A stretch of DNA of 64,000 bases from Chalara sp. BL73 (taxonomy: Eukaryota > Ascomycota > Leotiomycetes > Helotiales). The notes below the pieces were generated by a model that did not search any database, was not told the origin of the DNA, and saw nothing but the letters and a program-made list of their open reading frames with translations. Shown piece after piece: positions 25,532-62,878 of the stretch. Location of the stretch: the NCBI GenBank assembly GCA_918026815.1, contig CAKJVC010000150.1, positions 868,001 to 932,000 on the forward strand, in the 5' to 3' direction. The stretch's first letter is position 1, and each line of letters starts with the position of its first letter. The position numbers and the translations under genes are program-made.

Positions 25532-27113
25532 CTACTGCTTATGGCGCCTCGTCAAGTAGCACGGCCATCCATACGGCACAGCTGTAAAGTGAGTCTCAAA
25601 CCTCCAGCTTTGCCCCTCGTTCACCTGCCTAATCTCATAATCTCGAACTAACATTGCCGTCGTCTTGGAGAGCTCCATATGAGCCAGATGCCTCCCAGGG
25701 CATTGATTGTACCCAGCACCAAATGAAATCAAATATTTCTCCATTTCACGGCAACGGGAACCCATCCATCGAGTTGGCGAAAATACATCTGCGTCATCTC
25801 CAAAGATGTCGTAACGCCGGTGTATCACCCAAGGATTGACGCTGAGTATGACACCTTCACGAAAGTGACGACCAAGCACGGTCACGCCGCCTTTAGGTGC
25901 AACACGTGGTAGACCAAAAGCTACTGGTGTGTGGAAACGAAGGGCCTCTTTTATACACGCCTGAAGGAGAGGCAGTTTCTGGGTTTCCTCGTGGGTCGGT
26001 ATGTCAGCCAAGTTAGCACCGTCAATTTCCTCCCTCAGCTCTCTCAGAACCTTTTCGTTTCTCAACAAATTATAGAATAAAGCTTGCAATGTAGCGCTGA
26101 CAGTATCGGCACCGGCACCGATATTTGCCACCGCCGCAGCCAGGATCTCTTTCTCCTCCATGCGATCAGGATGCTTGGTCCGCATATCCATCCACTGTTG
26201 AATCATATCTTTACGGACTTTATCGCTTTTAGATCGGGCATCAACGGCCGCGAGGCAAGTGTCGAAAATATGCATAGTTGGCTGCAGATTGAGGTACCCG
26301 ATCAGGGGGTTTGCCAGGAGATAATCATGTGCCCACCAGAAATGACCCATGACCGCCACATACATGCCCAGGGCACGGGTGTTTGCAATCGCATTCCCTA
26401 TATCACGGCCCTGTTCAAGGAAGCCAAAATGCTTGGAGAACGTCGCCTCACCCATGATGTCGAAAGCAAGGAAATTGAACCATTCATCGAAGTTCACGGG
26501 CAGGCCGGCTTCTGAGAGGTTGTTGAGACGCCTCTTGAGTAAGAGAAGCGCACCGTCGACGTACGGTTCGCTTTTAATGACATTTGAGAATGCATATCCG
26601 GGTGCGAGATTCTTGGTCTTGGTAATGTGACGCTTTGCGTCTACTTCAGACATTTGATTGACATAGCGAGAGTCAGGAAGTGAGAAGATTCTATACCAAT
26701 CACCCTGCACGATCGGGTCAGCACATATCGTGATTAAATCTAAACTTGCGAAGGCACACCTTGTTCATCTGACTCTTGAGAACTTCAGCAATTGCATCCG
26801 GATGACCAACGCTGACCTCGTTGTACGCAATGCGAACGAAGTCACCTACCCGGGTAGGTCAGCATGTTCAGGCCTGGATGGTACAGTCCCCCCTACCATG
26901 TTTCCTATGTTCTACGATAGTTGCTTGCTCGGTATGGCCTTTAATAGCATGCAATATCTGCCACAGGACAGAGAACGAGCCCAGGAAAGGTCCAGGGATG
27001 TCACTGATAGATGAGAACCAACGTCGGCGGACCAGTGTCAGAGCTATAAATACCAAGACTGCCCCAGAAACCAACGCCACGTATGTCGCATAAGTATGTC
27101 TTTCCACAGACAT
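25532..27113 (-). CDS. Cytochrome P450 monooxygenase (secondary metabolism type)
   Basis: Exons 27113-26897, 26845-26760 and 26704-25532 join in phase to a 491-residue protein. It has an N-terminal membrane anchor (YVALVSGAVLVFIALTLV) and a proline-rich hinge (IPGPFLG). The I-helix oxygen-binding motif is GAGADT, the K-helix ExxR is in KEALRFH, and the PxRW motif is SPTRW. The heme loop FGAGYNQCPGR fits FxxGxxxCxG, with Cys as fifth heme ligand. It should sit in the ER membrane and oxidise a small hydrophobic substrate with a reductase partner. It is divergent from the methyltransferase at 27320, only 206 bp from start to start, so the two are probably co-regulated. Confidence 0.93.
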
Positions 27114-27319: not shown

Positions 27320-28590
27320 ATGAGTTCTACTAATGACCTACAACAGCCCCACTTAGACTCAGATGTCACAACGATAAACACGATCGGCTCAGGGCTCGGA
27401 GCAGATGCCAGTGGACCAGCACTTGACCAAGAGACGGAATCCGAAGTAGGGGACGATGTGGATTCAGCCATAGAGGTTGATGTAGGCATGCTGTTTTCCC
27501 TTCTGCTTTAATAACCCGCGCTGAATTTGCAGTTCGACAGCGATTCCGGTTACGATGATGGGAGCATACACTCCATCATAAGCTCTCTCGGCTCCTTCGA
27601 ATTCGATGATATCCTCCAACACGGCCATCGATACCATGGCAGTGGCAACGTTCTTCTTCCAAACGATGAATCCGAGCAAGATCGTCTTGACCTTCAACAT
27701 CATATCTTGAAGATGTGCCTTGATGGCGCTCTTACTGCGACAAGTCTCCTTACTTCCCCGCAGCATATCCTTGATATCGGGACGGGCACGGGCATTTGGG
27801 CAATTGAGATTGGCGACAAGTATCCCTCTGCGCAAATAACTGGCGTGGACTTATCACGTATCCAACCAAGCTGGGTCCCACCAAATGTCGAGTTCGAAAT
27901 CGACGACGTGACAAAACCATGGGCTCGAACTAAAAGCTCTATAGATTTCGTTCACATTCGAAACATGGTTGGTAGTATCCGCGACTGGAAAGCACTATTT
28001 GCAGAAGCTCTCGAACATCTCAAACCAGGCGGCACAATTGAGGTTACAGATATCAGAACGCATTTTGAATGCCTTGATAACACGTTTGCGGAGAGAGGAA
28101 AGTCGTGCAAGGAGTGGCAAGACGCTTTCCATGAGATCGCAAAAGACATGGGAATGGACTTCGACCCTACCCCGAAGGTGCCGGGATGGCTTAAGGAAGT
28201 AGGATTTGAGCAGGTTCACTTGGAGTCAAGAATAATACCAGTTGGCCCGTGGCCGAGAGACAAAAAGTTGAAAACCCTTGGAGTGTATTACCTGTCCCAC
28301 ATGTTAGATGGAGGTGAGCATAATCCTGTTAGGTATCGCACCTTGCGATGGGTAGCGCTGATGGCGAATCCAATTAGGAATGGAGAATTACTCGATGATG
28401 CTATTTACAAATGCTGGTTGGGAAGCAACATCTGTACATGCGTTGCTTGGTAAAGTAAGAAGTGAGCTGAAAGATCCGGGGATGCATACCTTTACTAGAG
28501 CGTAAGTCTATCTTTTCAGTCTTTTACAAGTTACAGTCTTATAATATTCTTTGTAGATGTTTCGTAACAGGGCGGAAAAAGCTCGCCTAA
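27320..28590 (+). CDS. SAM-dependent methyltransferase, LaeA-like
   Basis: Exons 27320-27481, 27533-28313, 28378-28501 and 28557-28590 join in phase to 366 residues. An acidic low-complexity N-terminus (about 75 residues) precedes a class I methyltransferase fold: motif I ILDIGTGTGIWAIEI, motif II TGVDLSRIQP, a WVPPNVEFEIDDV strand, FVHIRNMVG, and LKPGGTIEV. The order VDLS..QP.WVPPN...IDD is characteristic of the fungal LaeA-like group, which includes both regulators and small-molecule methyltransferases. The C-terminus ends in CFVTGRKKLA, as in relatives. Pairing with the adjacent divergent P450 argues for an enzymatic role in a small metabolic pathway, but a regulatory role cannot be excluded. 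Confidence 0.9.
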
Positions 28591-29207
28591 TAATCCGTTT
28601 TGTCACTTGTTTCGTAGGTTCGATGCAATACTAGCGGCAAGAACTTCTTCCTCTATTATATAGAGGAGCAAATAAATAATTTCCCCAATTTCTATATAAG
28701 CAAATGACTATTATGATGGACTTATAGCTACTGCCAATCTTGGACATTGCTCTTGAACCTTAAGGGATTTCATTCCGTGGACTTGTGACGGTCAGTGGTG
28801 GTTGACAGCCTAGCATGTGCGTTGCCAAGCGGGACCTATGGAACCAGCCTAGGCAGGGACGCTGCCTTGCTCAAGAAAACATGCTATAACATGTCAGGGC
28901 TGGGTCAAAAACCCTATAGTAATGATTTCTATCAAAGTTCAACAGCGCCTAGAAAAAGCTTAATTTTAAGTGTAAACCAAGGACAGAAGGGTCATGCATA
29001 TATGGAAAGGCACTGATGTGGCAAAGCAGAAGCCAAGGTACAGTGAAGGAAAGTCCCGTTGTCTCTACAAATTGATAATGTATTGTCTAGCGATCTGGGC
29101 CAGGGTGCAGACTGCTCAATACAGGCCCACGCATTTCTCAAAATAAGACACAAATTTGCACATGTTAAACGGTACCGCTTGATGTGATAGCCTGACACCG
29201 GTAATAC
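28591..29207. other. Intergenic, no gene supported
   Basis: Contains the 3' flank of the methyltransferase gene. No convincing frames or repeats. Confidence 0.4.
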
Positions 29208-29605
29208 TTACAGTACATATTTGAATCCGGGATCAAGTTTTAATAAGCCTCCAAGTCCTTGCTGGGCAATTTCTTTACCATTCTTAGCATTCATATCGGA
29301 CTTCTCGTACTGCGCTACGACCTTTTCAAGCTTTTTATCCTCGCAAGCGAGGCAGAAACGCAACATTTTAGCAACGCGGATAAAGGCAGAAACAAACACC
29401 GTGTTTCCGGTCATCGCTGGTATGTAGCGCCGCCCGGTCTTTTGGTTGTAAAAGTAAGGAGCATAGGTCTGAGCAAAGATTCCAACTATATTCGTAAACG
29501 CGAGGGCTGCCGCGCGTTTTCCCACTGGTTCGGAAGCTGTGGCGGTTGGTATAAAAACGAACGATGCCTGAGCGGAAAGACAGTAGAGCGAGAATATAGG
29601 AATGT
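29208..29605 (-). pseudogene. C-terminal fragment of an MFS anion/allantoate-type transporter
   Basis: The minus-strand frame reads FVFIPTATASEPVGKRAAAL, then AFTNIVGIFAQTYAPYFYN, TGRRYIPAMTGN and a cytoplasmic tail with LRFCLACEDKKLE to a stop at 29208. This matches the last transmembrane helices of Dal5/allantoate-type permeases (helix, Y.PYFYN, loop, tail). The upstream two-thirds of the gene is missing. LINE-like sequence on the other strand begins at about 29640, so the gene was probably cut by that insertion or by a rearrangement. Confidence 0.6.
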
Positions 29606-29639
29606 CTCATAACAAAACTCATAGCGATTAAGAAGGCCT

Positions 29640-30245
29640 TAGCGTCAGTGCGAGATGATCCCAACCTCCTCGCCAGAGAAAGATCGATCGAGATCTTGAC
29701 AGAGGGCCAAACAGCACTGAAATTACTACGGAAACTAGCCCAACAGAGCGGCTAGTCTGCTCTTGAGGATATTATAAGGACCATAGCTGAGAGGGATGGT
29801 CGGGAAGCCCATCTCCGTTGAGTCCTAGCACAGGAAGGAATCGTCGGCAATGAGAGGGCCCACTAAGAAGAACACAGAACAACTAAGCTAAAATCAGCAG
29901 CCAGGTTCCTTCAGAGGACAGGAGGTGTTCAGCTGAAATCTGCTGCGATCCGGTGCGGTAGAGAGAGAAAGGACGGAGCAGGTTCGACTAAAAGGGAAGG
30001 CGAGCCAGTTCGCGCGTGGAATCGATGGTGCACTACCTCGGAAGCACACAATCAAGCTATACAATACGCTCGGGGGAAGAAGCAGCTATTTTGGCGCAAC
30101 TCAGGACAGTACACAATCGGCTCAAATCGTACCCTTTCGCTTCAGTTTAGCAGAAGACGACTGGTGTAAATGCGGAGTAGCATCCGATACAGTGCGTCAT
30201 TTGTTATTTGCATGTGAGAAATAGCAGGACGAACGCGTGCCCACA
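29640..30245 (+). mobile_element. Tad-type LINE 3' fragment (RNase H and zinc-finger end of ORF2)
   Basis: Plus-strand frames with interruptions read TEGQTALKLLRKLAQQSG and GIVGNERAH, which match the RNase H region of fungal LINE ORF2. These are followed by AAILAQLRTVHNRLKSYP and DDWCKCGVASDTVRHLLFAC, the terminal CxC...H...C finger. Multiple stops and frame changes make it a dead 3' piece. It may belong to the same family as the ORF1 scrap at 480-700. Confidence 0.65.
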
Positions 30246-31498
30246 GACCAGCTAACGCCATAACGCCTTTATATTCCTGTTACCCGTCCTGTGCTTGGCC
30301 TTTCCATGATTCTCCTTGTACTGGACCTGCCAGTTATTCTCGCAAACACGACCGCTGCTTTGACCACAGCTATATTTGGTCGCCGCAATTCTTTCTTCCT
30401 ATCCAGTGTCTTGCCTGTATTTCGGGCGACCCATGCATTTCATCCACCGCCCAATGAGGGTGAAAGATCTCCCAATCACTGCTGCAGTTCCTGGTGCAGC
30501 GGGTGGGGCTAGGCAGTAATTAGGAAGAAGACTGACGTGAAGTGAGCTGCACGGCTCCTTGGTCTTGGGGGATGACTGTAGCCTAATATAAAACGTAAGT
30601 GAAAACATACTACCTACGCTACCGTACTTATAACGGCGCTGTTCTGCTGACGGTACTGAAAGATCCACGGTGCCGTGCAAGGATATCACACCGTTATAAA
30701 GACAAAATTTCCCGAATATAACTTAATTACGGGTCTGGCGGGGAAATGAGGTCTGCAGGGATAGGCTGTAGTTTTTGTGAATTGTAAATTTAAATCGTTC
30801 CGGTTAGAATCTAGAGTTAATGTATTGCAAACTTTAAGAATTCTTTAACTTTATATATTATTAGCTAAAGTAATTTAAGTTTTTAATACAAATTTTCAGC
30901 TTGCTTTAAAATTTTACTTGGCCGAATTTGTATAGTTCAAGCTAAAGCAGTCCGAATTGCACTATTACAATCCGGACTGCTTTAGCTTAAAGTACAAGTT
31001 AAAAGGGATATTATAAACTTTAATTGTCTGATATATTAATCCAAGCCCCCTCTCTTACTTTCATTACCTTCTTACAGACATCTCGGTCTTGGAAATTGTT
31101 CCCGTCCTATTAAATATTGAAGTCTAGCTCACGAGGCTGGATACAGAACTAGGCTCGTAAAGTCTATATGCGGCATAAACCGAACTACCAATCTCTCTGA
31201 CCCTCTGATCCTATTTGCGTTAAAAAAGTATCAGAATTTGCTTCAAATGGTACGCTGATTGAGGATCTCTAGATATTTGAAAATAATCCGATTTTTCAGG
31301 TTTTGCAGCCAGGTCAATCACCATGGCCTCGGGACATTCGACAGCTTGATGTTTCAGCTGTTCGCCTTCAACAAATATTTTTCGTGCCCTAGTTGCTAAG
31401 CATTTCTGTCCATCCTGTATTCGTCGTTGTCATTCTGTTGTTGGTGGTGGCCGTTGTCGCTGTCGCCGTTCACGTCAATGCTCATCCTCCTAAATAGT
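30246..31498. other. AT-rich intergenic DNA
   Basis: About 1.25 kb without a supported gene, apart from the hairpin at 30939-30988. It forms the 3' flank of the large NLR gene. Confidence 0.4.
30939..30988. repeat. Near-perfect hairpin, 21-nt arms, 8-nt loop
   Basis: 30939-30959 and 30968-30988 are inverted copies (AAGCTAAAGCAGTCCG arms), with 20 of 21 positions pairing. It lies in AT-rich intergenic DNA. It could be the centre of a decayed foldback or MITE-like element. A transcription terminator role is unlikely in a fungal nucleus. Confidence 0.75.
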
Positions 31499-34400
31499 CT
31501 AGATGTTCTGGTACGACCATACACGGGCTCTCGTGTCCCTGGAACCGGTGGCAAAGTAGCCTCCAGCCGGGCTTGGCGCAACAGAAATGATTGAGTTCTT
31601 GTGACCCTGTAGCATGAGCTGCGTGGCGCCGGTGCGGCAGTCCCAAAACTGTACGCCTCGGTCTTCGGAGCAGGAAATTATCCAGGTAGCGTCTGGCGTT
31701 GGAGTAACAGAGATAATGGAGTCCTGTTTGCGCGTTAGCTAACCGGTTCGAGAGAGATATTGGGGGTGACACGTACCTTATGTCCTTCGAACGTTCTTAC
31801 GTATCTGCTGCTCTCAGGTTCCGGGTTTGGAATCTCCCACGGAATTCTGAGATACCACATCTTGATGGCCTTGTCCAGACTACCGCTGACCAGGTTGGTG
31901 CAGTTCGAGGACCAGGTGACAGAATACACACTATTCTTGTGGCCGTCAGATCGTCCCTCAAAGTGGTCAAGGAGATAGCCTTGGTGGAGATCCCAGACTC
32001 GGACGCTCTTGCCCAGCGAGCCAGCGGCGATGTAACTGGCGTCAGGGGAGAGGGCAACACTAGTGACAACGTCTTCGGTGGTCAAAGTCAACGTGCTCTG
32101 GCTAGTGTCAATATCCCACAGGCGAACCGTTCTGTCACCGCTACCCGACGCGATCGTGCGACTGTCGCAGGCAAAGTCGAGCGAGTAGACATTCTGCTCG
32201 TGACCCCAGAAGGTGTTATGAATCTGCCTAGATGCAATATCCCAGACCTAGGAATTTCAGTGTTCACTTTTTTACCCCAGGGGAGTGAGGATGCTCACTT
32301 TGATCAGTTTATCTTCCGCTGCGGTGGCGAGATATCGGCCGTCAGGGCTGAAGCAGATGCTTCGGATATAGAGGTCGCCAGATACATCGATTGGCTCGTC
32401 CTGTAACTCGCAGAGCTTCTCGCCAGTGGTGACGTCGAAGATCTGCGCCGATCGGTTGCAGCCGGTGGCGACGTATTTACCGTCTTGTGAAAATCTTACA
32501 CAGCAGACGATGCTCTTATGAGGCAGAGTGTGAACGAGGTCGACGTCAAGCACGCGAGGCACACTCGGGTTGAATATTACACACCAGTCACCCTTGGCCT
32601 TTTTAATTTGGAGCGGGAGATGGCCTGGATCCGAGTTGACCTCAAACTTAGCTAATAACAAATTCATTATTACCTCGTGCCCGTTTACTGCTGCCCACCA
32701 TAGCGCTGTTAGACCATTTTTATCCGTTGAGTTAACGTCGACGCCATTTTTGTCGAGCAACAGCTTGACAACAGCTGTATGCCCGTTCTTGGCAGCCCAC
32801 GACAGCGGCATACTTCCGCCATCGCACTGCACGCACTCAAGCATATACAGCCATCCATTATCCTCGAGGTCAGTGGCTTTGTCAAGGAACAAGTTGGCCG
32901 TCACATTATCCCAATAGCCATCGTCGTACGATTTCTCAACCATATACCATAACGGCGTTCGTCCTTTATTATCCTGGGAGTATGGGTCAGCGCCTTTATC
33001 AACTAGCAGCTTGACTACGGCTTCATTTAACCACTGCGTGACTGCATATGATAGTGGCGTCCGTCCGATTTTATCCTTGGAGTCTAGGTTAGCGCCTTTG
33101 TCAACTAGCAGCTTAACCACCGACTCCCAATCTCCGGTTTCGTGGTAATCAACCACATACGACAGTGGAGCTCGTCCGACTTCATCCTTAGAGTTTGGGT
33201 CAGCGCCTTTGTCGAGCAGCAGCCTGACTATCGCCTCATTTCCAACCTTGACCGCACATAATAACAACGTATGTTTATTATTTTTAGAGTCTAGGTGAGC
33301 GCCTTTGTCGAGCAGCAGCCTGACTATCGCCTCATTTCCAACCTCGACCGCATATGATAACGACGTCTGTCCATCATTATTCTCAGAGTTTGGGTCAACG
33401 CCTTTGTCGAGCAGCAGCCTGACTATCGCCTCATTTCCACCCTCAACCGCATATGATAATAGCGTCTGTTTATTATTATCTTTAGAGTCTAGGTCAGCAC
33501 CTTTGTCGAGCAACAGCCTGACTATCGCCTCATTTCCAACCTCGGCCGCATATGATAACAGCATCTGTCCATCATTATTCTCAGAGTTTGGGTCAGCGCC
33601 TTTGTCGAGCAGCAGCCTGACCATCGGCTCATTTTCACCCTCGACCGCATATGATAATAGCGTTTGTCCATCATTATTCTTAGAGTTTGGGTCAGCACCT
33701 ATGTCGAGCAGCAGCTTGACTATGGCCATTTGCCAATACTCAGTGGCCCACGAGAGCGGGGTATGACCAGAATCATCCTTAGAGTTTAGGTCAGCACCTT
33801 TGTCGAGCAGCAGCTTGACCACAGCCTCTCGCCCAGCCATAGCGGCCCACGAGAGCAGCGTCTGACCAGAATTATCCTTAGAGTTTAGGTAAGCGCCTTT
33901 GTCGAGCAGCAGCTTGACCACAGCTATATATCCGTTCCTAGCGGCCCACGAAAGCGGCGTCTGACCAGAATTATCCTTAGAGTTTAGGTTGGCGTCTTTG
34001 TCGAGCAGCAGCTTGACCACAGCTATATGTCCGTTCTCAGCGGCCCACGACAGCGGCGTCCGACCGAAAGAATCTACAGTGTCGATATTTGTGCAGACCC
34101 GATCTGCCTCTTGCAATATCACCCGGAGAGGCCCTACCAACTTATATCGCGACACGATGTGTAACATGCTAGTCCCTTCTGGTAGACGGCCGAGTGAGTG
34201 TTGCTCTAGTATACTGTAAACCTTCACCCATAGTTGCACAAGATGCTCTGACGGCCAGGAGAAATATGTTATAAGATCGTCTTGAGGGTGCTTCCTAGTT
34301 TCGCTGCATCCCACGTGCACCACCCACGAGGCCGTAGCATAATGCAATAGAGGAAAGATAGACATCAGACTGGCACGATCGCGGGTTGTTGACGAGACAA

Positions 34401-36915
34401 TCTCCTCCATTGCTAGGTACCGTATGCAAGTCCTGGACAGCTGATAGTGTGCAACCCCGGCCACCAAGTCGGCCGTCTTTAAGCTGCCATCCAGAATGGA
34501 TAGGCCTTTCTCGACGAAGAAGTCCCCGACTGACTGGTGGATAAACTGTACGACCCATGTCTTAGATGACGGGACGACCTCGGCAAGTCCGCAGCTGAGC
34601 GTCTGAATTTGCCTTATCATCCGGCCGTTGTCCGATTCATAATCTTCGGCGCTCTGGCATTCTTGTAATGACTGGTGTGGGCAATCGGCCTCAATAACCA
34701 TGGCCCATCGCAATTCGTCTACTGATAAGGGCCGCGTAGCAAAGCAGATCCATTGGATCAGTTTTAAGGAGGCTGATCCCATACCTTGGGTGAGTTCGTG
34801 GTATAGTTCATCAAGGTCTGGAGGGATAGAGTAGACTTCTGCTTCGATTTTCTTTAATCCAACACCCTTACGGTCAAGGCTCAAAACTTGCTCCACCACG
34901 AGACGCGCCCACATGAAAACGCCAAAGGCGCGATCCGTGATTAAAGCCGGAATCGTAGATGATGTTTGCGCACGGAACACAGAAAGCCGAACATCAACGT
35001 AAGTCGAAATATCCTCTCGGTTTTCATTTTCAAGACAAATTTCGAACTTAGAGTATGGAGCTAAAATTGGATAGTGTCGGCAAGTAAAGCAGATATGCAA
35101 TTGTGAGTCAATAGATGGGAAACCCTGGAACAAAGACTTAAACTTCTCGGCTAGGTCGACTGCATTCTTTTCACCACATTCGTCCAACGCGTCGATAAAT
35201 AACCAGACCGAGCGAGTCTTTAGGACCTCTGAAAGACGTGACTCAAAGAAACGCCATAGTTCCTGCTCATGCCAGTCCCACTTTTCACCGGGCTCACCGA
35301 TATCCTTACGCCTTTGCTTAAAGGTTTCGACAAGATCTGGAAATGCGTTGGGAGCCTGCCTAAGGACTTGATGAAGGAGAGACCGGAAGAGGCCAAGCGG
35401 AGCCCTTTGAAGTTCAACACCACGACCGTGAAAGAAGAATGAAAGAACAAGGTCGCTGTGTCTAGCCTCGCGATTGTCGAGAACGTATTGCAGCAATGTC
35501 GACTTCCCAGAGCCTGGTTTCCCCTTAATCCAGAGCAGGCCATGATCGCAAGCCGCCCAGTCTTTATATGTTTTGCATTGAAGCAGCCATTCGCAAGTCC
35601 CTGTGACGGCGCGGTTAATGTCATAGGAGCGGCTTTGCATTTCCGGAAAAGCTAGCGATTTTAGGCAATCTTGTGACAGGGTTAGCACTGGCCTGGGTGG
35701 GTTTTGAATTTTACAATAATATTAACTCAAATATATTCTCGCAGAAGCTATATACTAGTTCTCCTTACCGAAGCACTGGTTCTATCCAATGCATCGATGG
35801 CCAGAGCCAGTATAGGTATTCTGAATACGCTTACCAGTGTTCAAATTTTGGGTGCCAGAGCCGGGGTTATTGATAGGAGAGTCACCCAGGCTATACCCCG
35901 CTAACGAAGGTGGCAAACCCGACAGCTTCTCCGTTTGGCTAATGGATGGATGCCTGACTTGTGATTCCCACCTGGTCAGTTCTCCAAGCAGCCTGTGGAA
36001 TCCATTATCTTCCGCGGAGGCAAACCTGACCATGTCCCTATGGTTGGCATGGATAGTGATGGGATTGTAGCCCTCAAGAGTGGCGGACTCCTTGGACACG
36101 ACTTTCCCGGCCAAAGGCAGGGGTAGTTCTTCAAAGAAGCATGTGACCTCAAGAGGCCTGCCGCCTTCACGCTGTTCTCGTATCATTGCCAAGAACCTGA
36201 CTTGAATAGACTCGAGGAGTTGATTGTTCGTCCCCAAGATTTCCAGTAGCGACTTGTTAGTGGACTTGATAAGGCCAATAGCCGAGGCCGGGATCTTGGC
36301 CCAATCAGCCTTCCAAGAGCCCTTGTGAGGGGTGCCCATGAATATGATGCCTTTGGTGCAGTCAAATATACCGCGGAGATGAGGTTCGGGGTTATTTCGT
36401 GAGAGCAGAATAGCTTCTTTGCACACAATGCCACCCAGGCTGTGGGCGACGAAGATCAGGGGACGTGATGACGCATTGCAGCGGGCTCTGTTTGTCGTCA
36501 AGTCGTTCAAAAGGTTCGTAGCATGGTCGATCAGCCGGTTTGACGATGCAACCGATTTTCGCACCACGTATGCGTCGTAGCCGTACGTGAGTATTCGAGC
36601 TCTACCAAGCTCCAGCGGGAGGAGGGTCTTTGGCCAAGGTGCGGACTCCCCGGAGGCGGTCCAGGTGCTGTCCCGATCGCCGGTCAAACCGTGGACAAAG
36701 CAGATATCAACCGTGGCGTCGGGGCGGTCGTGCAGGACTTCAACTCCATCTGGGAAGGAGGGGAGCGGAGCGCTCTCAGAAGAAGGGCCCGAGTCTGTCT
36801 CGGGCGGTGATCGCGGATTAGAGAGCGCATGCTCGGAGCTCGTTTCTGGTGGTGGATTAAAGGTAATTTGACGCTGCTTCCGCCTACAAAGTTTCTCTTG
36901 TAATCTCTTCATCAT
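31499..36915 (-). pseudogene. STAND/NLR-type gene: alpha/beta hydrolase - NACHT - ankyrin - Tup1-like WD40, with one in-frame TAG
   Basis: Exons 36915-35769, 35687-32299, 32247-31777 and 31723-31499 join in phase to 1,743 codons before the stop. Order: hydrolase (about residues 55-300; VHGLTGDRDSTW, nucleophile in VAHSLGG); a Gly/Asn/Gln linker (GSGTQNLNTG); NACHT ATPase (P-loop GKPGSGKST about 438, Walker B LFIDALDEC); about 14 ankyrin repeats (about 920-1395); then a WD40 propeller (about 1415-1743). The propeller starts VPRVLDVDLVHTL, followed by VRFSQDGKYVATGCNRSAQI, RSICFSPDGRYLATAAEDK, IASGSGDRTVRLWD, LVSGSLDKAIKMW and DRGVQFWD. These blocks and their order are those of the Tup1/RcoA co-repressor. 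A TAG (35782-35784) lies just before intron 1; CAG->TAG would explain it. Unless read through or recoded, it separates the hydrolase from the sensor. NLRs of this layout act in fungal non-self recognition. Confidence 0.85.
32640..34080 (-). repeat. Array of about 14 ankyrin repeats with high internal conservation
   Basis: Within the NLR gene, 33-residue units of the type DGQTLLSYAVEVGNEAIVRL follow each other. The central five or six are nearly identical even at the DNA level. For example, the block CCTTTGTCGAGCAGCAGCCT recurs at about 33206, 33302 and 33401, 96-99 nt apart. Differences cluster in a few codons per unit (GENEP, VGNEA, GGNEA). Such arrays in fungal STAND proteins recombine and diversify. 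Confidence 0.9.
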
Positions 36916-39900
36916 CCAGGGTGCGCTGCCAAACCTCTTAGAAAGGCGAGCTCACGACAAAGTGTAGAAAATCGCAATTGTGCCTGACCTATTAGCTGCC
37001 GAATCTGGTGGTCCGTGAAGGAGAATGGCAGCTATGGGAAAAAATACGACGTCGCGAAGAAGGAGGAAAGGCGGGGTGGTGGCCAGTTGAAATGCCGCAA
37101 GCCTTCCTTTTGATCTGGGGCTGCAGTGGCTGTTGTCCAATAACCAATGTCATGCTGTCGCTGTTGCCCTTCCCGCCGAGGAAAAGGCCCAATGCTCCCA
37201 GCCTTTGGCATTTAGTCGCAAAAGACAAGGTTATTGTGGCTGATGCTATTGGCTCGTGTTGGTAATGATCTTGTGCTCGACTCGTCGTCATTTTCAAACG
37301 GACAACATTCGATGTTGAGGAGGGCTTTATGTGTTCCCATCCCAGCTGCTGCAAGATACGCTATGATTGGCTATGGATATAGGGAGTTTATCCTTGGCGG
37401 CTAATTGGTCCAAGAAAATTCCCTTGCGATTGACCCATAGTTCTCTCTGCCTGGGTGTTGTTAATAATACCATGGTAGGGCCGGCTAGAGGTACACCCGA
37501 ACTATTAACTATCCTTCGAAATTCACAATGCCACATAGCTGCGATTGGATGACTTTCCCAGGACTTTAGAACATATAAATAAAAAGGCCCCCCGAGAATA
37601 CTTGCGCTACACTCCACTCGTGGCCCTGTCAATCTCTCTCTAATACGCTGGCAGACGCTCCTCTTCATCTATTCTGGTTTCTCCTCTAGGATAGTTCGAT
37701 TAGAAGTAATCTTTTGACTAAAGTTATAGCGGCCGTCACGGACCCATAACACCTGAACACATCCTACTATTATATAAGCAAAAGTTGAAAGGCAGAAAAG
37801 CGAACTAACTAGAGGCGCGTTTTCTTTTCTTTGTCCTCGTTATTTTCTTCTGGAATCCAGTATTCTTGATAATGAAGACTTGAGAAACGCTGTGTGTGCC
37901 CTGATGGTCTTTCTACGACCCATCATAATTAACGAAAAGAGCGACCTACCTGTCCTTTTAAAGCTGCGATAGCAGGCTAAGACTACTTATTAGAGCCTAC
38001 TCAACGTGAATATCAGGAATACCTCACCACACATTAACATCATTTATTAGTTTCTAGGAAGTAGGGCCTGTAGCGATACCGCCAAGTCGAAATTTTACCA
38101 CGTCCCCGTTGCCCAGCTTCCAATCATTATACCCCTTCTGCAACCCGTACATGCCATCACTAAGTACATGAAAGGGATAGACAACTGGAGGTCACATCGT
38201 TTGCAGCAGATGGGTAATTGCACTGGCGCCTTAGTCAGAAGGCCCCGGACAACATTAGGGTTATTTTAGCCGTAATTTAGAATATCATACCAAGTCCGGC
38301 TGAACCCCAAATTGGAAGGAAGGTCACCATTTGATTGGCGAACTTAGACATATCCAAGGCGTCAGTATCTTCATTTGTGAAGACTTTAGATCTAGAAAGA
38401 GCGCTGAGAGTCGCTTGCAAGTTTAAGTTCTTACAGTGGTTTGCCCCATAATCCCAACAAGAGAACCGAATAGATTGACATTATTAATGGCCGTGTACGT
38501 GGGTCAAATTCGACTTGGCAGAAATCCACCATGCTACTAGCAATATTGTGCAAGCTTCGTGTAAGTCTAAGGTTTCGTGTTTGTTCTCTGCGATATTGGC
38601 ATTTTATAGACGCTAGCATCAATAAAGGAGCATAATCCGGCCCCTTGACGCTGGCATATCCACTGCGATAGCGTGTAGCGGACGGTAGCGTTGGAAAAGC
38701 AAAATCTAGCTCGTTAATGCTAGAGCATCCGTTACGACGGTGCCTGACGAACGCCGGCGTTGGGAATGGAGCAAATTTGACTTCCTGACGCTGGCGTATT
38801 CACTGCGCAAACGTTTTTGGGGGGAGGGGGGGGAGCTGGCGTTGAAAAAGAGAAAAATGCGCTAACGGTTCAATGGGATTTAATTAGAACCTCTTATTCC
38901 TGCTCATTGCTTAATTCTGCCCACCCGCTTGTTTCCCCCACCCGCTTATTTCTGCAGACGACTTAATTCTGCCAACTTCCCCTTTTTACAAACCTTATTC
39001 CTGTAGCCTGGAGACCTATCGGAGACCAGACCCTCTGGCCTCCGCAATCACCTTATATGCACTGAATTGACAAAAGGCTTGTGGCAGTACCGAGAACATA
39101 GGGTTGAACGATTTCCCAGCTAGCACACCTTGTGTGGCGCACAGGGAGAAGTGTCGGAGACAAGTGATGAGCGTACTTTTCTCTCTGTAGGAGTGGATGG
39201 AACTATCGTTGATGAAAGAAGAATGGAGTAAGAGCTGGGAACGCTGCAGAGATCGCGGCGTTTATGCTGCCTTCCCCATGTTCTGACTTGAACTTTGTTT
39301 GTCGGGCACAGTTAAAAGGCCAAGAACTTGAGGGGTAAGCCGTTGGATCTGAACCATTCTCGCCCGGCTAGTTAATAGCCAAGATCCAAACCCCATTTTG
39401 TGCTACCTCTTGGCACTTACCTTTGGACCGGCCATTGTCCAGTCACAAAACTCAGAAGTGTCAGGAGGAAGATAGTTTAATAATGCAATATAAAGCATAG
39501 ATGGGCACCGCCCTATTTACAAGGGCAGTTGCGGGGTCTTGAAAAGAGGTTGCCAGACGAGCGAGAGATTCGACTTTGTTCATCCGCAGCCGAGCACATC
39601 CAATTCCCAAACAAAACGCACCAAAACAAAAACAACACAACAGGCAAAAGAAATACATCCCAGCCCATGTAAACCTACCCAGCCAGTGACCTTGAACCCT
39701 ACCCAGGGCTAGTGGGCAAGCGAACATAAGGAAGGGGTCACACAACCAAAATGAACATTCAATTCCTGCAACCACTGGTGCATATTTGTTCCTAGCCTCG
39801 CGCCAAAACGAATTTTCGATGCGCATTGCTAGCTTTCAATATCATTGGCGTACATCAGGGGCTACGAACACGAATGCTAGGTGAATCGGGCGACAACACA

Positions 39901-40194
39901 GCCCCTTTAATCCCCAAAGAGAGCGCTTAAGATAAGAGATTATCCCTCGGCTCTACGCTGTTCTGTCTTCACGACTCCCGACTCAATCTTATCAGAACTC
40001 ATAGCATTCCGCAGTAGTGTGGTGTATGAATTTCAAGATTCTGTTTCTTTGCAACTGGCTACCAAGCCAGTCCGTACTGCCTTGGGGTTCGGCTAGAGAC
40101 CTAGTTCTTTGTATCACCTTGGTTAGGATCCTGTTCAGCGCCAAATCCAATATTTTTTCTAACTCAAAATGTTGCAGTTCTTCTGAGATTTGCC
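36916..40194. other. 3.3-kb stretch without a supported gene
   Basis: Includes the promoters of the NLR gene and of the downstream HET gene. The open frames at 36992-37354, 37327-37668 and 39461-39826 (minus) have no domain features or partner exons and are not called. 38640-38880 holds a small repeat pair. Confidence 0.4.
38646..38807. repeat. Two copies of a ~22-bp motif, 140 bp apart
   Basis: TGACGCTGGC(A/G)TAT(C/T)CACTG occurs at 38646 and again at 38786 in direct orientation, with two C/T or A/G differences. Both copies are followed within 70-80 bases by a GCGTTG(G/A)AAAA motif, so the whole ~100-bp unit may be a decayed tandem duplicate. No coding content. Confidence 0.6.
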
Positions 40195-42504
40195 ATGGCA
40201 ATCGCCCTCCCCTCGAGGCTTCTCGGCACTGTTGATAACAAGTTCCGAGTTTTCGATCCTCGCAGCGAAGGCGCTCCCATAGTGACAGATTTTGACATAA
40301 TCTCCCACACATGGGGCGGCCGGAAGAAAAAATACGAGTGCGAAATTCCGGGCGTGGACTGGAAGTTAACAATAGATCCCATGAAGATCGAAGAGATCAA
40401 GAAGTTGATGACGCAAGAAGACGTACTGCCGTTCATGTGGGTGGATTGCTTGTGCTTAAACCAGGCAGATGAAGACGAAAAGTCCACTGAGATTGCGAAG
40501 ATGTACGAATACTACAGGAGCGCCCGCAAGTGCCACATCCTGATAGATCTGAAGGAGGTATGGGACCCGCAGGAAGTTGTAGACAACCTAAAGTTTGTCG
40601 ACCACATAATGACCAACATTAAGAGCACGTCACTTTCCTCTGAGGCTAAGCTGACCGTGAGTGTGAACAAACGGTTATCGATGTGGGAAAGCGAAGCCGC
40701 ATGGGTCTTTCCCTTGGACAAGGCAACTGTTAGGTCCGCCGCCATTGACATGGGCGTGCTGAACTGCTACTCGACAAACATCGGCTACGTCAAGTCGCTC
40801 TTCAACAATTTCTACTTCTCCAGAGTGTGGACGTTCGAAGAAATGCTACTCGGAAAGAACATAACTTTATGGGGCACACGCAGGATGAGTATGTCATGTA
40901 TAGGGCAGCTCGATACCTGGATGGATCTTGCCATGGACTGCGCGGACAAGGCGATCAAGCTATCGGATTGGATAGAGGAAGGCAGAATTCTGAACACCTC
41001 ATCGATTGACGCTATTCTGGGGAAAATAGATGAAGATGTGCAGGATTTTGCAACTTTGCGGAGACAAGTCTTTGGGATCCACGGCGCGAGAACGGACATC
41101 ATAAATGGTGGACCTCGATGGTGGTACGAGAACCACCAGGGAATATGCAACGTCTTCTCGGCCATCTCCATCACGCCGCGCGCTTGCTATCGAAAAGAGG
41201 ACATTTTCAAAGGGCTGCTCGGCCTCTTCAAAGGGCTATTCACCGCAGAGGAGATCAAAACAAAGATGAATGGAGATAACATGGAAAGTCTCTCCTTCGA
41301 ATTCTTCAAGCAGCTCTCTATCAAGACCAGGGGCGCCTGGACCAGACTTGTGATCACTAGCGGGGAGAGGGAGAGATGGGACTGGATACCGGTGGTAGCA
41401 AATCCTAACAGCCTCCTGACCACCGACTGTTTCGCCGGCGTGGTCAGACTGGGACATCTAAATATGGACTTGGACGGCTTGGCAAAAGCTACAGCAATGA
41501 CTAGCCTTGAGGGGGCTCCCCGTAAATACATGAAGATTGTACTTAGCGAGAGCAACGCTGCTAAAGGGGATCTCAACTTTGTCTTCCAGGGCTGTAATTG
41601 TGGAAAAACCGTCAAAACGGGCCGCTTCTTCGGCACTGAACTAATTCCCACCAATGACAACCCCACGTATGTGGCCGGCGACGAGACCGGCAGAATATTA
41701 GTGCAATGCGCGACAATTTTGGGAAGTATTATGGACCCAGGCAGCGACGTCGTCAAATACAGGGAACGATTGCTCAACAATCTTCGACCCCTATGGTTGA
41801 CCACTGACCCCAGTGCAAAGCCCAAGAACTGGGCCAAAAGATGCGTGAGCGGCACCTTTTGGGAAGACCCGTACCAACACCCGGACTACAGGGCGCATAA
41901 CATGTCTATGAACTACAGAATGAAAGTCGACTGCGGATCCCGGCTCGACAACGAAAGCACTTCGAGACTTTCCTGTGAGGTTCGCGTGAATTGCGGATGC
42001 GCCATAGTTGCTCCGTTTTCGCTGGTATTCGAAGCCATAAGCGCAGTGCACGGCAGCTCCCTCGGTCGAGCCACCGCGCAACAAGGAAACGAAGGCAGGA
42101 TCGTGCTTCATGACGGGTTGGGGCTGGTACAGGTCGGAGACGTGGGCAAGGCCTTCAACCTCGTGGCGTTTGGAGGCAATATCGACGCTTATCGGATGCA
42201 TGCCCACAGCTGCCGGAGCACAAGGATCGACAAGTACGTAATCCCCAAGGCAGGATTCCCCAAAGGCAGGGCTTTGGTGAGGGAGGAATTCACTCACGGT
42301 ATCTTGGACGGAATGAGAGACTACGGATACGTGCCAACCAGTGACAGAAACGTGCCAACTCGAGACGAATACGGGCAAATGATAGGCTCCGGGAACTTGC
42401 TGATATTTAGAAAACACCCACTCGGTCGCTATAAGATCATTGGCGTCTGCATTGACGACTGGATTCAACACAAGAAGGGAAGGTCCCTGGTGACCATTAA
42501 ATAG
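40195..42504 (+). CDS. HET-domain protein, intact single exon
   Basis: A 769-residue open frame without introns, ATG at 40195 and TAG... stop TAA-type end at 42504 (IK, stop). The N-terminus carries the HET fold: DFDIISHTWGG, a WKLTIDPMKIEEIKKLM helix, FMWVDCLCLNQADEDEKSTE, IAKMYEYYRSARKCHILID, and later SLFNNFYFSRVWTFEEMLL. These are the three conserved HET blocks in order and spacing. The C-terminal ~450 residues have no repeat or ATPase domain that I recognise; two cysteine motifs (CNCGK, VNCGCAI) are present. HET proteins execute incompatibility-type cell death in the cytosol after recognising a non-self partner. Unlike the other two HET loci in this window, this one has no stop codons. 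Confidence 0.88.
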   Translation: MAIALPSRLLGTVDNKFRVFDPRSEGAPIVTDFDIISHTWGGRKKKYECEIPGVDWKLTIDPMKIEEIKKLMTQEDVLPFMWVDCLCLNQADEDEKSTEIAKMYEYYRSARKCHILIDLKEVWDPQEVVDNLKFVDHIMTNIKSTSLSSEAKLTVSVNKRLSMWESEAAWVFPLDKATVRSAAIDMGVLNCYSTNIGYVKSLFNNFYFSRVWTFEEMLLGKNITLWGTRRMSMSCIGQLDTWMDLAMDCADKAIKLSDWIEEGRILNTSSIDAILGKIDEDVQDFATLRRQVFGIHGARTDIINGGPRWWYENHQGICNVFSAISITPRACYRKEDIFKGLLGLFKGLFTAEEIKTKMNGDNMESLSFEFFKQLSIKTRGAWTRLVITSGERERWDWIPVVANPNSLLTTDCFAGVVRLGHLNMDLDGLAKATAMTSLEGAPRKYMKIVLSESNAAKGDLNFVFQGCNCGKTVKTGRFFGTELIPTNDNPTYVAGDETGRILVQCATILGSIMDPGSDVVKYRERLLNNLRPLWLTTDPSAKPKNWAKRCVSGTFWEDPYQHPDYRAHNMSMNYRMKVDCGSRLDNESTSRLSCEVRVNCGCAIVAPFSLVFEAISAVHGSSLGRATAQQGNEGRIVLHDGLGLVQVGDVGKAFNLVAFGGNIDAYRMHAHSCRSTRIDKYVIPKAGFPKGRALVREEFTHGILDGMRDYGYVPTSDRNVPTRDEYGQMIGSGNLLIFRKHPLGRYKIIGVCIDDWIQHKKGRSLVTIK

Positions 42505-44608: not shown

Positions 44609-46392
44609 CTAGTCGACCCTTCTCCTCGCGGTGACAGTGAACTCCCCATGGAACCTCGCAATGATCATGGCGTCCCATCGCATATCCTCCCTCGTCGTAG
44701 TGGTCTCTAAGTCAAACCTTCTCACCAGGTGTGCTGTTATCAGATATAATTCCATCCACGCAAGATTAAGGCCAATGCAACTCCTCGGGCCACGAGAAAA
44801 CGGGACCAAGAATTTGTTCATCTCTTGTAGATCTCCCAGCTCTCCGTTGTTCTCGTCCTTCAACCACCGCTCTGGAATAAAACTTTTCGGGAATGGAAAG
44901 ATATCTTCGTTATGGTGGATGATGTATGCAGACATACCGACTTTAGATCCGGCAGGGACGAAGCGGCCATCGGGTAAAACAACACCACCTTTCGGTACGA
45001 TCCGCGGCATGCGCGATGAAAATACACTTGCGAAGCGCAGCGCCTCCTTTAGCACGGCGGTCAAGTACGGGAGTTTCTCGACCATGAGGAACGGGGCGGT
45101 GTCGGTTGGGCGAGGAAGCACCGTCTTGAGTTCGGCTAGTAGACGGGAGTGTACGTCTGGGTTTTTTAGGATTTCAAACAGACCTACGGTGGCGCTCACA
45201 GCTGTGGTGTCAAACCCGGCAGAGATCATATTTGTCACCTCATGAATCAGGCTCTCGCGACTCGGAACTGAAAACCCCTTGTCAGGATTAGGAGTGACCA
45301 TGCGTTCCATCAAGGTCGGGAAGGGCGGGGTGATTCCCGCTTCAAAGGCGGCCGTGAAGTCTTCGACGAGCTTGTTCGTTAACTAATACAAATAAATAGA
45401 CTCAGCAAAAGATGGAGATGTGCTTTAGGGAAAATGGCTCCGTACAATGTGCAGCTTCGTTCCCATCTCTATCGTCTCATTAAAGATGCTCGAGATCCGC
45501 AGCGGCAGAAACCGAACCACCTGGCGAAGATATGGGACGGCTTGAAAATTGTACAGGTTGTGGAGATAGGCCGTGAAGACCTGCACTTCGTTTGAATGTA
45601 GTTCATCATGATAGAGCGCGTCAAAGCTCTTGCCCAGGCAAAACTCGGAGATAGTATCAATTGTGACGCTCTTGATGGCCCATTCCACATTCGCTCGTCG
45701 CTTGAGGGCGTCAAACTCATCTAGGCGGGCACACAACAAGTCGATCTTCCCCATGACCATAGTCTCGAGCTGAAGGATCGACCGACGGGAGAACAGTGAT
45801 TCAAGCTGCCCACGTCGGATTTTGTGCTTGATCGGATCCTGTTCCATCGCGGTTGAGGTACTTGACTGACCGACATCGGATTTCGGGACAGCCTTTAGGA
45901 AGCTGTCATTGTTGTAGAGTGTATGATAGAAACGCGGGTCCGAGATGACGATATCATCCGGCCGAACACGAATTGCAACCCCTAGAAGGCGATGGTTAGT
46001 GATACGAGAGATGCGGATTCCAGGTTGTAGCATTTCATACCGTATTTTGGGTCTCTGTGCATTTTTTCCAACAGGAATGTTGTTTGTCCACATTTGCCCG
46101 GTTTGGTTCCTATATTATGCCACAGCTCCCACCTGATGCCATCCAGTCAGTCGTTGACTAGGTGATTAAAAGAAATTGGAGGGGGGGGGGGGGGGTTCAG
46201 TTCTCACCATGCTGACACCGCTGCAGCTGGATGGCCGGGGTAGATAGATAATGGACTGAAATAGAGCAAATAGATTGCGCGAGCAGTGTAATAAATCGCA
46301 TGATAGAGTAAAAGCGCAAGAAGACAGCCAAATGCCAGCTGAGAAGGCGAGGCTTCAGAGAGAAGATCCCTCATTTTGTCTAGGGGAGACAT
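44609..46392 (-). CDS. Cytochrome P450 monooxygenase, second locus
   Basis: Exons 46392-46208, 46132-46041, 45981-45446 and 45382-44609 join in phase to 528 residues. The ATG at 46392 (MSPLDKM) is preferred because it puts a hydrophobic anchor (FGCLLALLLYHAIYY) near the N-terminus. An in-frame extension to 46614 lacks family features. Motifs: YPGHPAAAVSAWWELWHN after the anchor, DPKYGVAIRVRPDDIVISD, I-helix SAGFDTTA, K-helix KEALRFA, FIPERW, and heme loop FSRGPRSCIG (FxxGxxxCxG). It should be an ER enzyme acting on a hydrophobic substrate. Intron 1 holds a 15-base G run. The MFS transporter at 47808 is divergent from it. Confidence 0.92.
46181..46195. repeat. Poly-G tract in intron 1 of the second P450 gene
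   Basis: Fifteen consecutive G on the plus strand, so a C run early in the transcript's first intron, just after the donor site. Length variation here is expected and would not change the protein unless it disturbed splicing. Confidence 0.85.
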
Positions 46393-60803: not shown

Positions 60804-62774
60804 TTATATTCCATACGCTTTCCCAGACCTTGTAGAAAATCGTAAAGCTAGATCTGTAGGTTGAATAGAATCTTGATCGAAAATATCGCTGTCGACTTCT
60901 GAAAAGTTATAGCTGCTATCACTTGTATCCAGCTCAATAGCCTGATCAACCTCTTCAATTTGTATGCCTAACTCTTGATCGAGGCGTGATTCCTCTTCTT
61001 CGTCGGTACTCAATTGATCCTCTTCTTCCTCTCTACTATCCTCATTCTCAGATTCCGATTGTAGCCATTCGTAAGCTCGTTCTCGACGTCCATTTGAAAC
61101 AGGCTGATTTGTACAACGACGGCGATTATGACCCCATTCAAGGCAATTCCCACAGCGTGTTTGTTTTCTGCTCCACTGGCCTTTGCGTACGCGTTTTGTT
61201 CGAGGTCGGCCAGCTGCTTTGCGCAAAATCGGTGGCTTAATTGAATCGTCACGAGGAAGGTTTTCGATTGAAACTGGTAGTACTGTATGGCGGTAAGTCG
61301 ACTCGTAAGCCTGCGTAGTGAAATACTGATCAAAAAGCTCAATTGAATCGATTCGCAGAAATTTTGCAGCGGCAATTGCGTGAGAACAAGGCGATTGATA
61401 CTCATTGAAATCTGTACAGTCGCAATACTTTTGATTCAAAACAACTACCCACTTCCGGCCTGATTCAGGATCCTCGACTTGCGCAATATTTTGATCTGAA
61501 AGATAAACTCGATATCGACGAGAAGCTTGTATTCGGCTTTTGAATTTGGCCATTGGCACGTTAGCAAGATCATTAGATTTGCTAGTTTCTGAACGCCTTT
61601 TGAACCACGTTTCAGTCGCTGCCAAATAAATACCGTCTAGTAATCGAAGAGGAGGCAAACGTCGATAATCACTCCAAACTGAATTCAACGATTCGACAAT
61701 ATTAGAAGTATTATGGCCAAATCGAGGATATTTAGAATATGCTCTAGTCCAAAGCTCTTTGTCGATATTGCAAAGGTAATCGAAAGCAGGCGTACTTAGT
61801 TCTTTCAACTTCATCATTTCGGCTTTGAACAACAATGGCGTTTTAGCTTTACATGCTCTCCAGAAAAGTGGCTTCACTTTGTTACCGAATCTTTGCTGTA
61901 AGTTATCTGCAATATGCTGACAACAGTGAAGATGAATTGCTGCAGGATACTCCTCTACTATAGCTTTCGCCATACCCTTTTCACGATCAGAAATAAAAGT
62001 ATGGCGACGTTGCAAAGTTACTGGAAAAGCAATCTTTAAATGACGTAAAAACCAGCTCCACCAATACTCTTCTTCAATAGGTACTAATGCCCAGGCTAAA
62101 GGCACTACTTTGTCGTTGGCGTCGATTCCACAACAAATCAACAATATCATACGATATCGCGACTTTGTATGAGTTCCATCAAGAGCAAAGAACTGACGAA
62201 GCTGTTTTGCAGCTAAACGAAGAGGGCCTGGAGCAAAAAAAGCTGCTTGGAATACGTTATCAGCCTGCGTTTGAAGTACAGCGTAATTGTTTTCATCGAT
62301 TTCTTTGAACCTTTCGATATAGCTAGGAAATAGCGCAAACGATTCAGTTTCATCACCATACATCTCGTCGAGAACAGCCTGCTTTACACGATACGCTTGA
62401 AGGTACGGAATTTTGTTATAAAATTGCAAGCGTTCAGTTGATTGAATTTGCTTTGGAGTAATTCTAGGATTCTCGATAATCGAAGAACGGTGATGAGGTA
62501 TTATATACTCCAAACTGTTTGTATTTGAAGCTTGAAAGTGACTTGCAGGAGAGCAAGTATGGGGTTCCAGATGAGTTATAACAACTCCTTTTCTTTTAGA
62601 ATTACAAGCTCTAATTTTGAACTTGCAGTTACGCGGCGTTCGACATACAATATTGAATCGTTTTTTATCTGAATGAGTAGCTTTCCATGATTCAGAAGCG
62701 TTTGCAACAAAGCTTTTGATAGCTAACTTAGCTGAAGAAATATCAGGAAACGTAGAGCCTATTTCGAGAGCCAT
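60804..62774 (-). CDS. MULE transposase, full length
   Basis: A 656-residue single-exon protein, ATG at 62774, stop at 60804. The N-terminal FLYWCH/FAR1-like part (MALEIGSTFPDISSAKLAI; CRTPRNCKFKIRAC, then THLEPHTC) suggests zinc-dependent DNA binding. The MULE catalytic core follows: FFALDGTHTKSRYRMILLIC (first Asp), PIEEEYWWSWFLRHL, FISDREKGMAKAI (second Asp), HLHCCQHIADNLQQRF and NTSNIVESLNSVW (Glu). A SWIM zinc finger (CDCTDFNEYQSPCSHAIAAA) and a CCHC knuckle (CGNCLEWGHNRRRC) come next, then a strongly acidic tail (SREEEEDQLSTDEEEESRLD). All expected domains are present and unbroken. It acts in the nucleus to cut and paste the element. Confidence 0.95.
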   Translation of the reverse strand: MALEIGSTFPDISSAKLAIKSFVANASESWKATHSDKKRFNIVCRTPRNCKFKIRACNSKRKGVVITHLEPHTCSPASHFQASNTNSLEYIIPHHRSSIIENPRITPKQIQSTERLQFYNKIPYLQAYRVKQAVLDEMYGDETESFALFPSYIERFKEIDENNYAVLQTQADNVFQAAFFAPGPLRLAAKQLRQFFALDGTHTKSRYRMILLICCGIDANDKVVPLAWALVPIEEEYWWSWFLRHLKIAFPVTLQRRHTFISDREKGMAKAIVEEYPAAIHLHCCQHIADNLQQRFGNKVKPLFWRACKAKTPLLFKAEMMKLKELSTPAFDYLCNIDKELWTRAYSKYPRFGHNTSNIVESLNSVWSDYRRLPPLRLLDGIYLAATETWFKRRSETSKSNDLANVPMAKFKSRIQASRRYRVYLSDQNIAQVEDPESGRKWVVVLNQKYCDCTDFNEYQSPCSHAIAAAKFLRIDSIELFDQYFTTQAYESTYRHTVLPVSIENLPRDDSIKPPILRKAAGRPRTKRVRKGQWSRKQTRCGNCLEWGHNRRRCTNQPVSNGRRERAYEWLQSESENEDSREEEEDQLSTDEEEESRLDQELGIQIEEVDQAIELDTSDSSYNFSEVDSDIFDQDSIQPTDLALRFSTRSGKAYGI

Positions 62775-62878
62775 GATACGATATCGATAAAATTACAATT
62801 GAAAGGAATAAAAGGATTTCAAGTTACAATAGTATTAAGGTTTGTGGGTCATGTGTTTTAGTCTCTTGGCGGCAAATG

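Follow-up and report, generated by a model that had tools for sequence, protein, structure and literature searches.

Plant NLRs with integrated decoys, such as RRS1, carry a domain of a host protein copied into the receptor. For fungi, 378 NLRs of Sordariales were surveyed in 2025 and found to hold 185 non-canonical domains; the authors proposed that the C-terminal CHK2/PRD-4 kinase of nine NACHT NLRs is an integrated decoy. WD40 is a canonical C-terminal class in that survey (PMC12258605), so that a domain scan would not flag a propeller taken from the corepressor Tup1. We describe here a gene with such a propeller from Chalara sp. BL73, in the window, a 64,000-nucleotide stretch (C129:868001-932000) of a 58.7-Mb genome in 199 contigs. 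The gene lies on the minus strand at window positions 36915-31499 and, as modelled from sequence, has four exons encoding 1721 amino acids with a single stop at the end. The model and a Pfam scan give the domain order as hydrolase-like, NACHT, ankyrin repeats and a full Tup1 propeller, agreeing with the first-pass annotation of this DNA, which had read a hydrolase, NACHT and ankyrin repeats and then a complete WD40 propeller in exons 2-4. By sequence comparison the propeller is a Tup1-derived copy and differs from the WD40 arrays that are ordinary in NLRs.

The genome has its own tup1 at C62:802524-804564, modelled with five exons and 604 amino acids and scoring 72.6 bits for Tup_N. Fusion protein and own Tup1 are identical at 236 of 341 residues with two single-residue gaps, in an alignment that runs to the last residue of both. 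It begins about 20 residues upstream of the propeller, at the linker LPxxxKKxxxDWxxIFNPxVPRVLDVDL; yeast Tup1 has a linker of the same kind. The linker VPRVLDVDLVHTL and the blade motifs quoted in the first-pass annotation are present in the model and are Tup1-like from start to end. The propeller was rightly located there, although the range given for it, about residues 1415-1743, becomes 1403-1721 in the model, with Tup1 homology from near residue 1383.

Identity in the propeller is 70% to own Tup1 (320 aa) and 48% to yeast Tup1 (342 aa), and reaches 39% (293 aa) for the best of the ten other WD40 loci of the genome that were compared; the comparison with Tup1 and NLR WD40 domains that had been suggested as a check thus comes out on the side of Tup1. 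The yeast Tup1 structure (PDB 1ERJ) is matched as one stretch, 1-314 (E 2.8e-94, 319 bits), while the repetitive, designed-like 2YMU outscores it (339 vs 319 bits) via six repeated partial stretches. Searching the genome with the propeller gave 225 matches; among those listed, the window gene (95–99%) and tup1 (64–80%) stand out, the best-scoring other match being 43% identical over 249 residues, with short pieces up to 50% (72 residues). The seven blades are distinct and pair one-to-one with those of Tup1, and are not near-identical tandem repeats. Tup_N was not found in the fusion among the Pfam matches listed (the best 25 of 48), and the sole Tup_N match in a genome scan (25.9 bits, cut-off 28.7) is an exon of own tup1.

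A tree had also been set as a check, and it places the fusion among Tup1 sequences, away from the WD40 domains of NLRs. The second of two trees contained the fusion, own tup1, yeast Tup1 and seven of the ten own comparison rows, all NLR-type WD40 domains with a NACHT match at a distance of 1.3 to 3.3 kb; omitted were L037, L038 and L039, which have very long branches and lie on contigs without NACHT among the matches listed. The fusion and the two Tup1 sequences form one side at 100/100, apart from the seven NLR-type domains, and the group holds at 90/99 in the first tree, which includes the three long rows. Pairing of the fusion with own tup1 reaches 83/60, so the order within the Tup1 group is not settled by the tree. 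An approximately unbiased (AU) test that forced the fusion together with the seven NLR WD40 domains against own and yeast Tup1 was not rejected (p 0.156, log-likelihood 1.83 lower); in this unrooted tree the constrained topology amounts to own tup1 pairing with yeast Tup1, so the test bears on the order within the Tup1 group. Shared residues argue against that pairing: 73 unite the fusion with own tup1 to the exclusion of yeast, 39 unite own tup1 with yeast to the exclusion of the fusion, and six unite the fusion with yeast to the exclusion of own tup1. An ordinary NLR WD40 array is ruled out by the tree, by the identities and by the blade-by-blade register.

Both introns within the propeller (two of two) are common to the fusion and own tup1, at equal position and in phase 0, the match to the genome's tup1 that had been looked for. 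Since both tup1 introns are kept, the copy was made from DNA, not mRNA, and a retroposed tup1 is ruled out. No segmental duplication with flanks was seen: in a blastn comparison of window 28001-39000 with the tup1 locus, homology was limited to 31500 (stop codon)-32589 (linker). A recent origin is unsupported, as propeller and tup1 differ at 70 of 106 fourfold sites, a count to be read with third-position GC of 0.64 in the propeller and 0.47 in tup1. Fourfold differences elsewhere in the gene are 74/112 for the hydrolase against its C7 relative, 35/62 and 40/91 for NACHT pieces against C22, and 66/105 for the NACHT-ankyrin part against the paralogue at C129:1129373.

Ankyrin repeats and Tup1 linker are read through without a break in a single 1149-codon open frame (35721-32272), which contains the junction. 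About 8 residues separate the last ankyrin repeat (LLLAK) from the start of Tup1 homology, and in the gene model no intron interrupts the stretch from the ankyrin repeats to where the propeller starts. In the paralogue at C129:1129373, 46% identical in the NACHT part, the NACHT-ankyrin open frame ends directly after the ankyrin repeats and so resembles the expected ancestor of the fusion. The proposal that a copy of TUP1 was fused to a NACHT-ankyrin receptor is supported by tree, introns, identities and the single open exon. We suggest that the 3′ part of a tup1 gene was duplicated as DNA onto the end of a receptor that formerly ended after its ankyrin repeats. The nearest NACHT, on C22 (60–61%), has ankyrin repeats behind it and, ahead of it, sequence that we take to be HET-like. 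Domain exchange is usual among fungal NLRs (PMC4986451), and the gene looks like its product plus one unusual piece.

We give a probability of about 0.5 to the reading that the gene encodes a fungal NLR-type (STAND) receptor with a second, Tup1-derived sensor, working like an integrated decoy. That sensor is plausibly an integrated decoy in that a copy of a conserved host protein is fused to an intact receptor. NLRs in general work by NACHT oligomerisation and output from an effector domain. In the fusion, a foreign or altered binder of the Tup1 propeller (a parasite effector or a Tup1 partner) would bind the copy, and binding would release NACHT autoinhibition; NACHT oligomerisation would then activate the hydrolase and so bring about cell death or defence. 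The propeller copies a hub protein, so its natural ligand would most simply be a Tup1 binder. Because the ankyrin repeats resemble an ordinary fungal NLR sensor, there may be two sensing modules in one protein. Yeast Ssn6/Cyc8 is bound by the N-terminal Tup_N region of Tup1; this region was not found in the fusion among the matches noted above, which weakens the earlier idea of a response to Ssn6/Cyc8.

Selection on the propeller speaks for the Tup1-derived sensor. Between fusion and tup1, dN is about 0.21 and silent sites are saturated (maximum-likelihood dS about 21, which gives no date, and NG86 dS undefined); fixing omega at 1 takes the log-likelihood from −2227.6 to −2363.3, a loss of 136 log units. 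The propeller looks constrained in this comparison, as under purifying selection.

Several points weigh against the decoy. The evidence comes from one gene in one assembly, and we know of no effector acting on fungal Tup1. The size of the pairwise omega is unreliable, since it includes the slow tup1 branch and the silent sites are saturated. With yeast as outgroup (342 columns), the fusion has 39 private changes and tup1 six (two-sided binomial p 5e-7), with branches of 0.41 and 0.055; by these counts the fusion propeller is released from part of the Tup1 constraint. It retains 163 of the 202 residues common to yeast and own Tup1. The same rate difference favors the rival that survives best, though we hold it unlikely: that the propeller was captured by chance and is now a plain binding scaffold, sensing something unrelated to Tup1. 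It also counts in favor of this rival that WD40 is a usual sensor fold of fungal NLRs (PMC4986451).

The interaction face bears on both readings. In 39 WD40 repeats of the seven own NLR-type loci the most variable positions are 7, 5, 23, 25 and 4, where the numbering starts at the glycine of the GH motif. Codons 7, 9, 25 and 27 are under positive selection in Podospora NLR WD40 repeats (PMC1805685), and by our reading positions 5, 7, 23 and 25 here correspond to them with an offset of two. At these four face positions in seven blades, fusion and tup1 differ at 8/28 and elsewhere at 73/258 (p 1.0; two diverged sequences, not alleles, with blade register set by hand), so there is no NLR-type excess of change at the face of the kind that marks HNWD-type sensors. 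This lack of excess at the diversifying positions speaks for the main reading and against chance capture, as does the low omega across the whole propeller. Yeast and own Tup1 differ at 5/28 face positions and 98/258 others (p 0.039), so Tup1 itself conserves this face. Of the face residues common to yeast and own Tup1, 16 of 23 survive in the fusion, no better than elsewhere (147/179, p 0.16), and its changes include K>E and G>R on blades 6–7, both to be counted against a decoy. Face changes are concentrated on blades 4, 6 and 7 (6/12, vs 2/16 on blades 1, 2, 3 and 5; p 0.044 for a split picked after seeing the data), as would suit a scaffold turned to another ligand, but blades 1, 2, 3 and 5 retain 14 of 16 Tup1 face residues. 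Sorted by loop class, the Tup1-conserved residues retained are 35/42 for top loops, 101/123 for strands and 15/23 for bottom loops (top vs rest p 0.66; the loop borders were placed manually by the WD40 pattern instead of by coordinates). On this evidence the face is partly kept and partly remade, not specially preserved.

A third reading, which we consider improbable, makes the protein a regulator of Tup1 signalling: a propeller without the tetramer domain could compete with Tup1 for repressors, or could bring the NACHT-hydrolase to Tup1-bound factors. Yeast Tup1 makes many contacts via its propeller, and the fusion has retained the propeller while Tup_N was not found in it; against this, the N-terminal architecture is that of an ordinary fungal NLR (PMC4986451). 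That the locus was wrongly annotated or assembled, or that the gene is decaying, the ankyrin receptor and Tup1 copy not being one working protein, is very improbable given the undivided frame at the junction, a contig of 1.88 Mb and intact splice sites and frame in the model; moreover, silent sites are far diverged while most amino acids are kept, so the propeller is no recent misjoin of the tup1 locus.

The integrated-decoy reading can be extended, tentatively and with less confidence, by analogy with plants: fungal NLRs might guard the Tup1 hub via an integrated copy of its propeller, with parasites, mycoviruses or rivals acting on Tup1 in the way that TOPLESS is acted on by pathogens of plants, and other decoys of this kind may hide as ordinary WD40 domains. 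The plant corepressor TOPLESS belongs to the Groucho/Tup1 family and has been called a hub of effector targeting; its second WD40 domain is bound by Jsi1, an effector of Ustilago (PMC12886408). TOPLESS and the CHK2 kinase copies in fungal NLRs (PMC12258605) are precedents in favor of the decoy. For effectors on Tup1 itself the plant parallel is an analogy, and to that extent weighs against the decoy. Were the propeller a bait, it would mark Tup1 as worth attacking inside fungal cells and would offer a direct means to fish for the attacker. Since the same genome holds both tup1 and the copy fused to the receptor, a matched pair is at hand for residue-by-residue decoy tests.

The receptor part was modelled as follows, all features being on the minus strand. 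Exon 1 (35835-36915) encodes an alpha/beta-hydrolase-like domain at about residues 70–310 with an AHSLGG nucleophile elbow (157–162), a type that goes by the name sesB-like in papers on fungal NLRs. Its Pfam matches are weak, both below cut-off (DUF676 19.6 bits, cut-off 20.3; Abhydrolase_6 19.6 bits, cut-off 26.3), but it shares 70% identity with a hydrolase frame found at C7:1348004. Within the same locus (C7:1343500-1352500, L029) that frame is followed by a second open frame, presumably an NTPase with near-identical tetratricopeptide-like units of about 42 residues each. Intron 1 (35688-35834; 147 nt, GTAAGC...CCAG) has borders picked from frame and consensus alone; all three introns (147, 51 and 53 nt) are GT...AG.

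The first part of exon 2 (34101-35687) encodes the P-loop NTPase and whatever lies between it and the ankyrin repeats. The NTPase matches NPHP3_N (PF24883) at residues 390–564 with 117 bits and is also above the NACHT cut-off (32 bits vs 26.7; C129:903122-903535); it keeps the motifs GKPGSGKST (416) and LFIDALDE (523), which we take to be Walker A and Walker B. The middle part (32623-34100) holds the ankyrin repeats (Ank_2, 341 bits), mainly of 99-nt units as seen in direct repeats at that spacing, to residue about 1382. Three direct-repeat families (minimum 40 nt) were found within 28000-39000, all in the ankyrin part, where 300-nt copies are 66–85% alike. The protein thus has the features expected of a fungal NLR/STAND protein: an NTPase with both Walker motifs, an N-terminal effector domain (weak in DUF676, but like a hydrolase frame that neighbours an NTPase-repeat frame) and C-terminal repeats of the superstructure-forming kind.

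In the last part of exon 2 (32299-32622) the frame of the ankyrin repeats continues into the Tup1 pre-propeller linker, from HLPLQIKKAKGDW, then blade 1 and most of blade 2; the propeller as a whole gives seven WD40 stretches at 191 bits. Intron 2 (32248-32298, 51 nt, between KLIK and VWDI) and intron 3 (31724-31776, 53 nt, after EGHK) are the two phase 0 introns placed as in own tup1. By the model and the Tup1 alignment, exon 3 (31777-32247) runs from the end of blade 2 through the end of blade 5, and exon 4 (31499-31723, stop codon included) encodes blades 6–7 with a Tup1-like end, RARVWSYQNI vs RARIWSYKNI.

The surroundings of the receptor gene were also surveyed. A 799-codon HET (heterokaryon incompatibility) frame (47.9 bits) lies at window 40105-42501 on the plus strand, about 3 kb from the receptor 5′ end. 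Cytochrome P450 frames at 25538-26764, 44615-45382 and 45431-46114 and a methyltransferase frame at 27515-28450 are perhaps parts of a metabolite cluster. A Mutator-like (MULE) transposase frame at 60810-62792, on the minus strand, has MULE, MuDR DNA-binding and SWIM matches. Genome-wide there are 87 NACHT matches at E ≤ 0.001, counted per exon and not per gene, a rich NLR repertoire.

The first-pass annotation knew of no described case. For Tup1 this holds among the open-licence papers listed, where no Tup1-NLR fusion was found in titles and abstract starts; the general idea has, however, been printed for CHK2/PRD-4 (PMC12258605). By term counts, three surveys of NLRs nowhere mention Tup1 in their main text (PMC4986451, PMC12258605, PMC9815663), and domain scans overlook a fusion of this kind, WD40 counting as canonical.

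Like plant integrated-decoy NLRs such as RRS1, the Chalara protein has a copy of a host domain fused to a receptor. With Tup1/RcoA/Rco-1 (PDB 1ERJ and own tup1) it shares propeller, linker, blade order, both propeller introns and the C-terminus; unlike them it is joined to a receptor, evolves faster, and has no Tup_N among the matches listed. Like HET-E, HET-D and HNWD of Podospora it is a NACHT receptor with a C-terminal WD40 propeller, but in those the tandem repeats are homogenised and codons 7, 9, 25 and 27 are under diversifying selection (PMC1805685, PMC2873952), whereas the fusion has distinct blades and no such excess. If the decoy reading is true, the gene joins the CHK2 kinase NLRs as another fungal receptor built round a copied housekeeping regulator. 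It differs from the CHK2/PRD-4 NLRs in carrying a Tup1 propeller, not a kinase, and in being seen in one genome only, and resembles those T-NACHT NLRs in its plan, in which a complete tripartite NACHT receptor ends in the copy of a regulator that is itself conserved and single-copy (PMC12258605).

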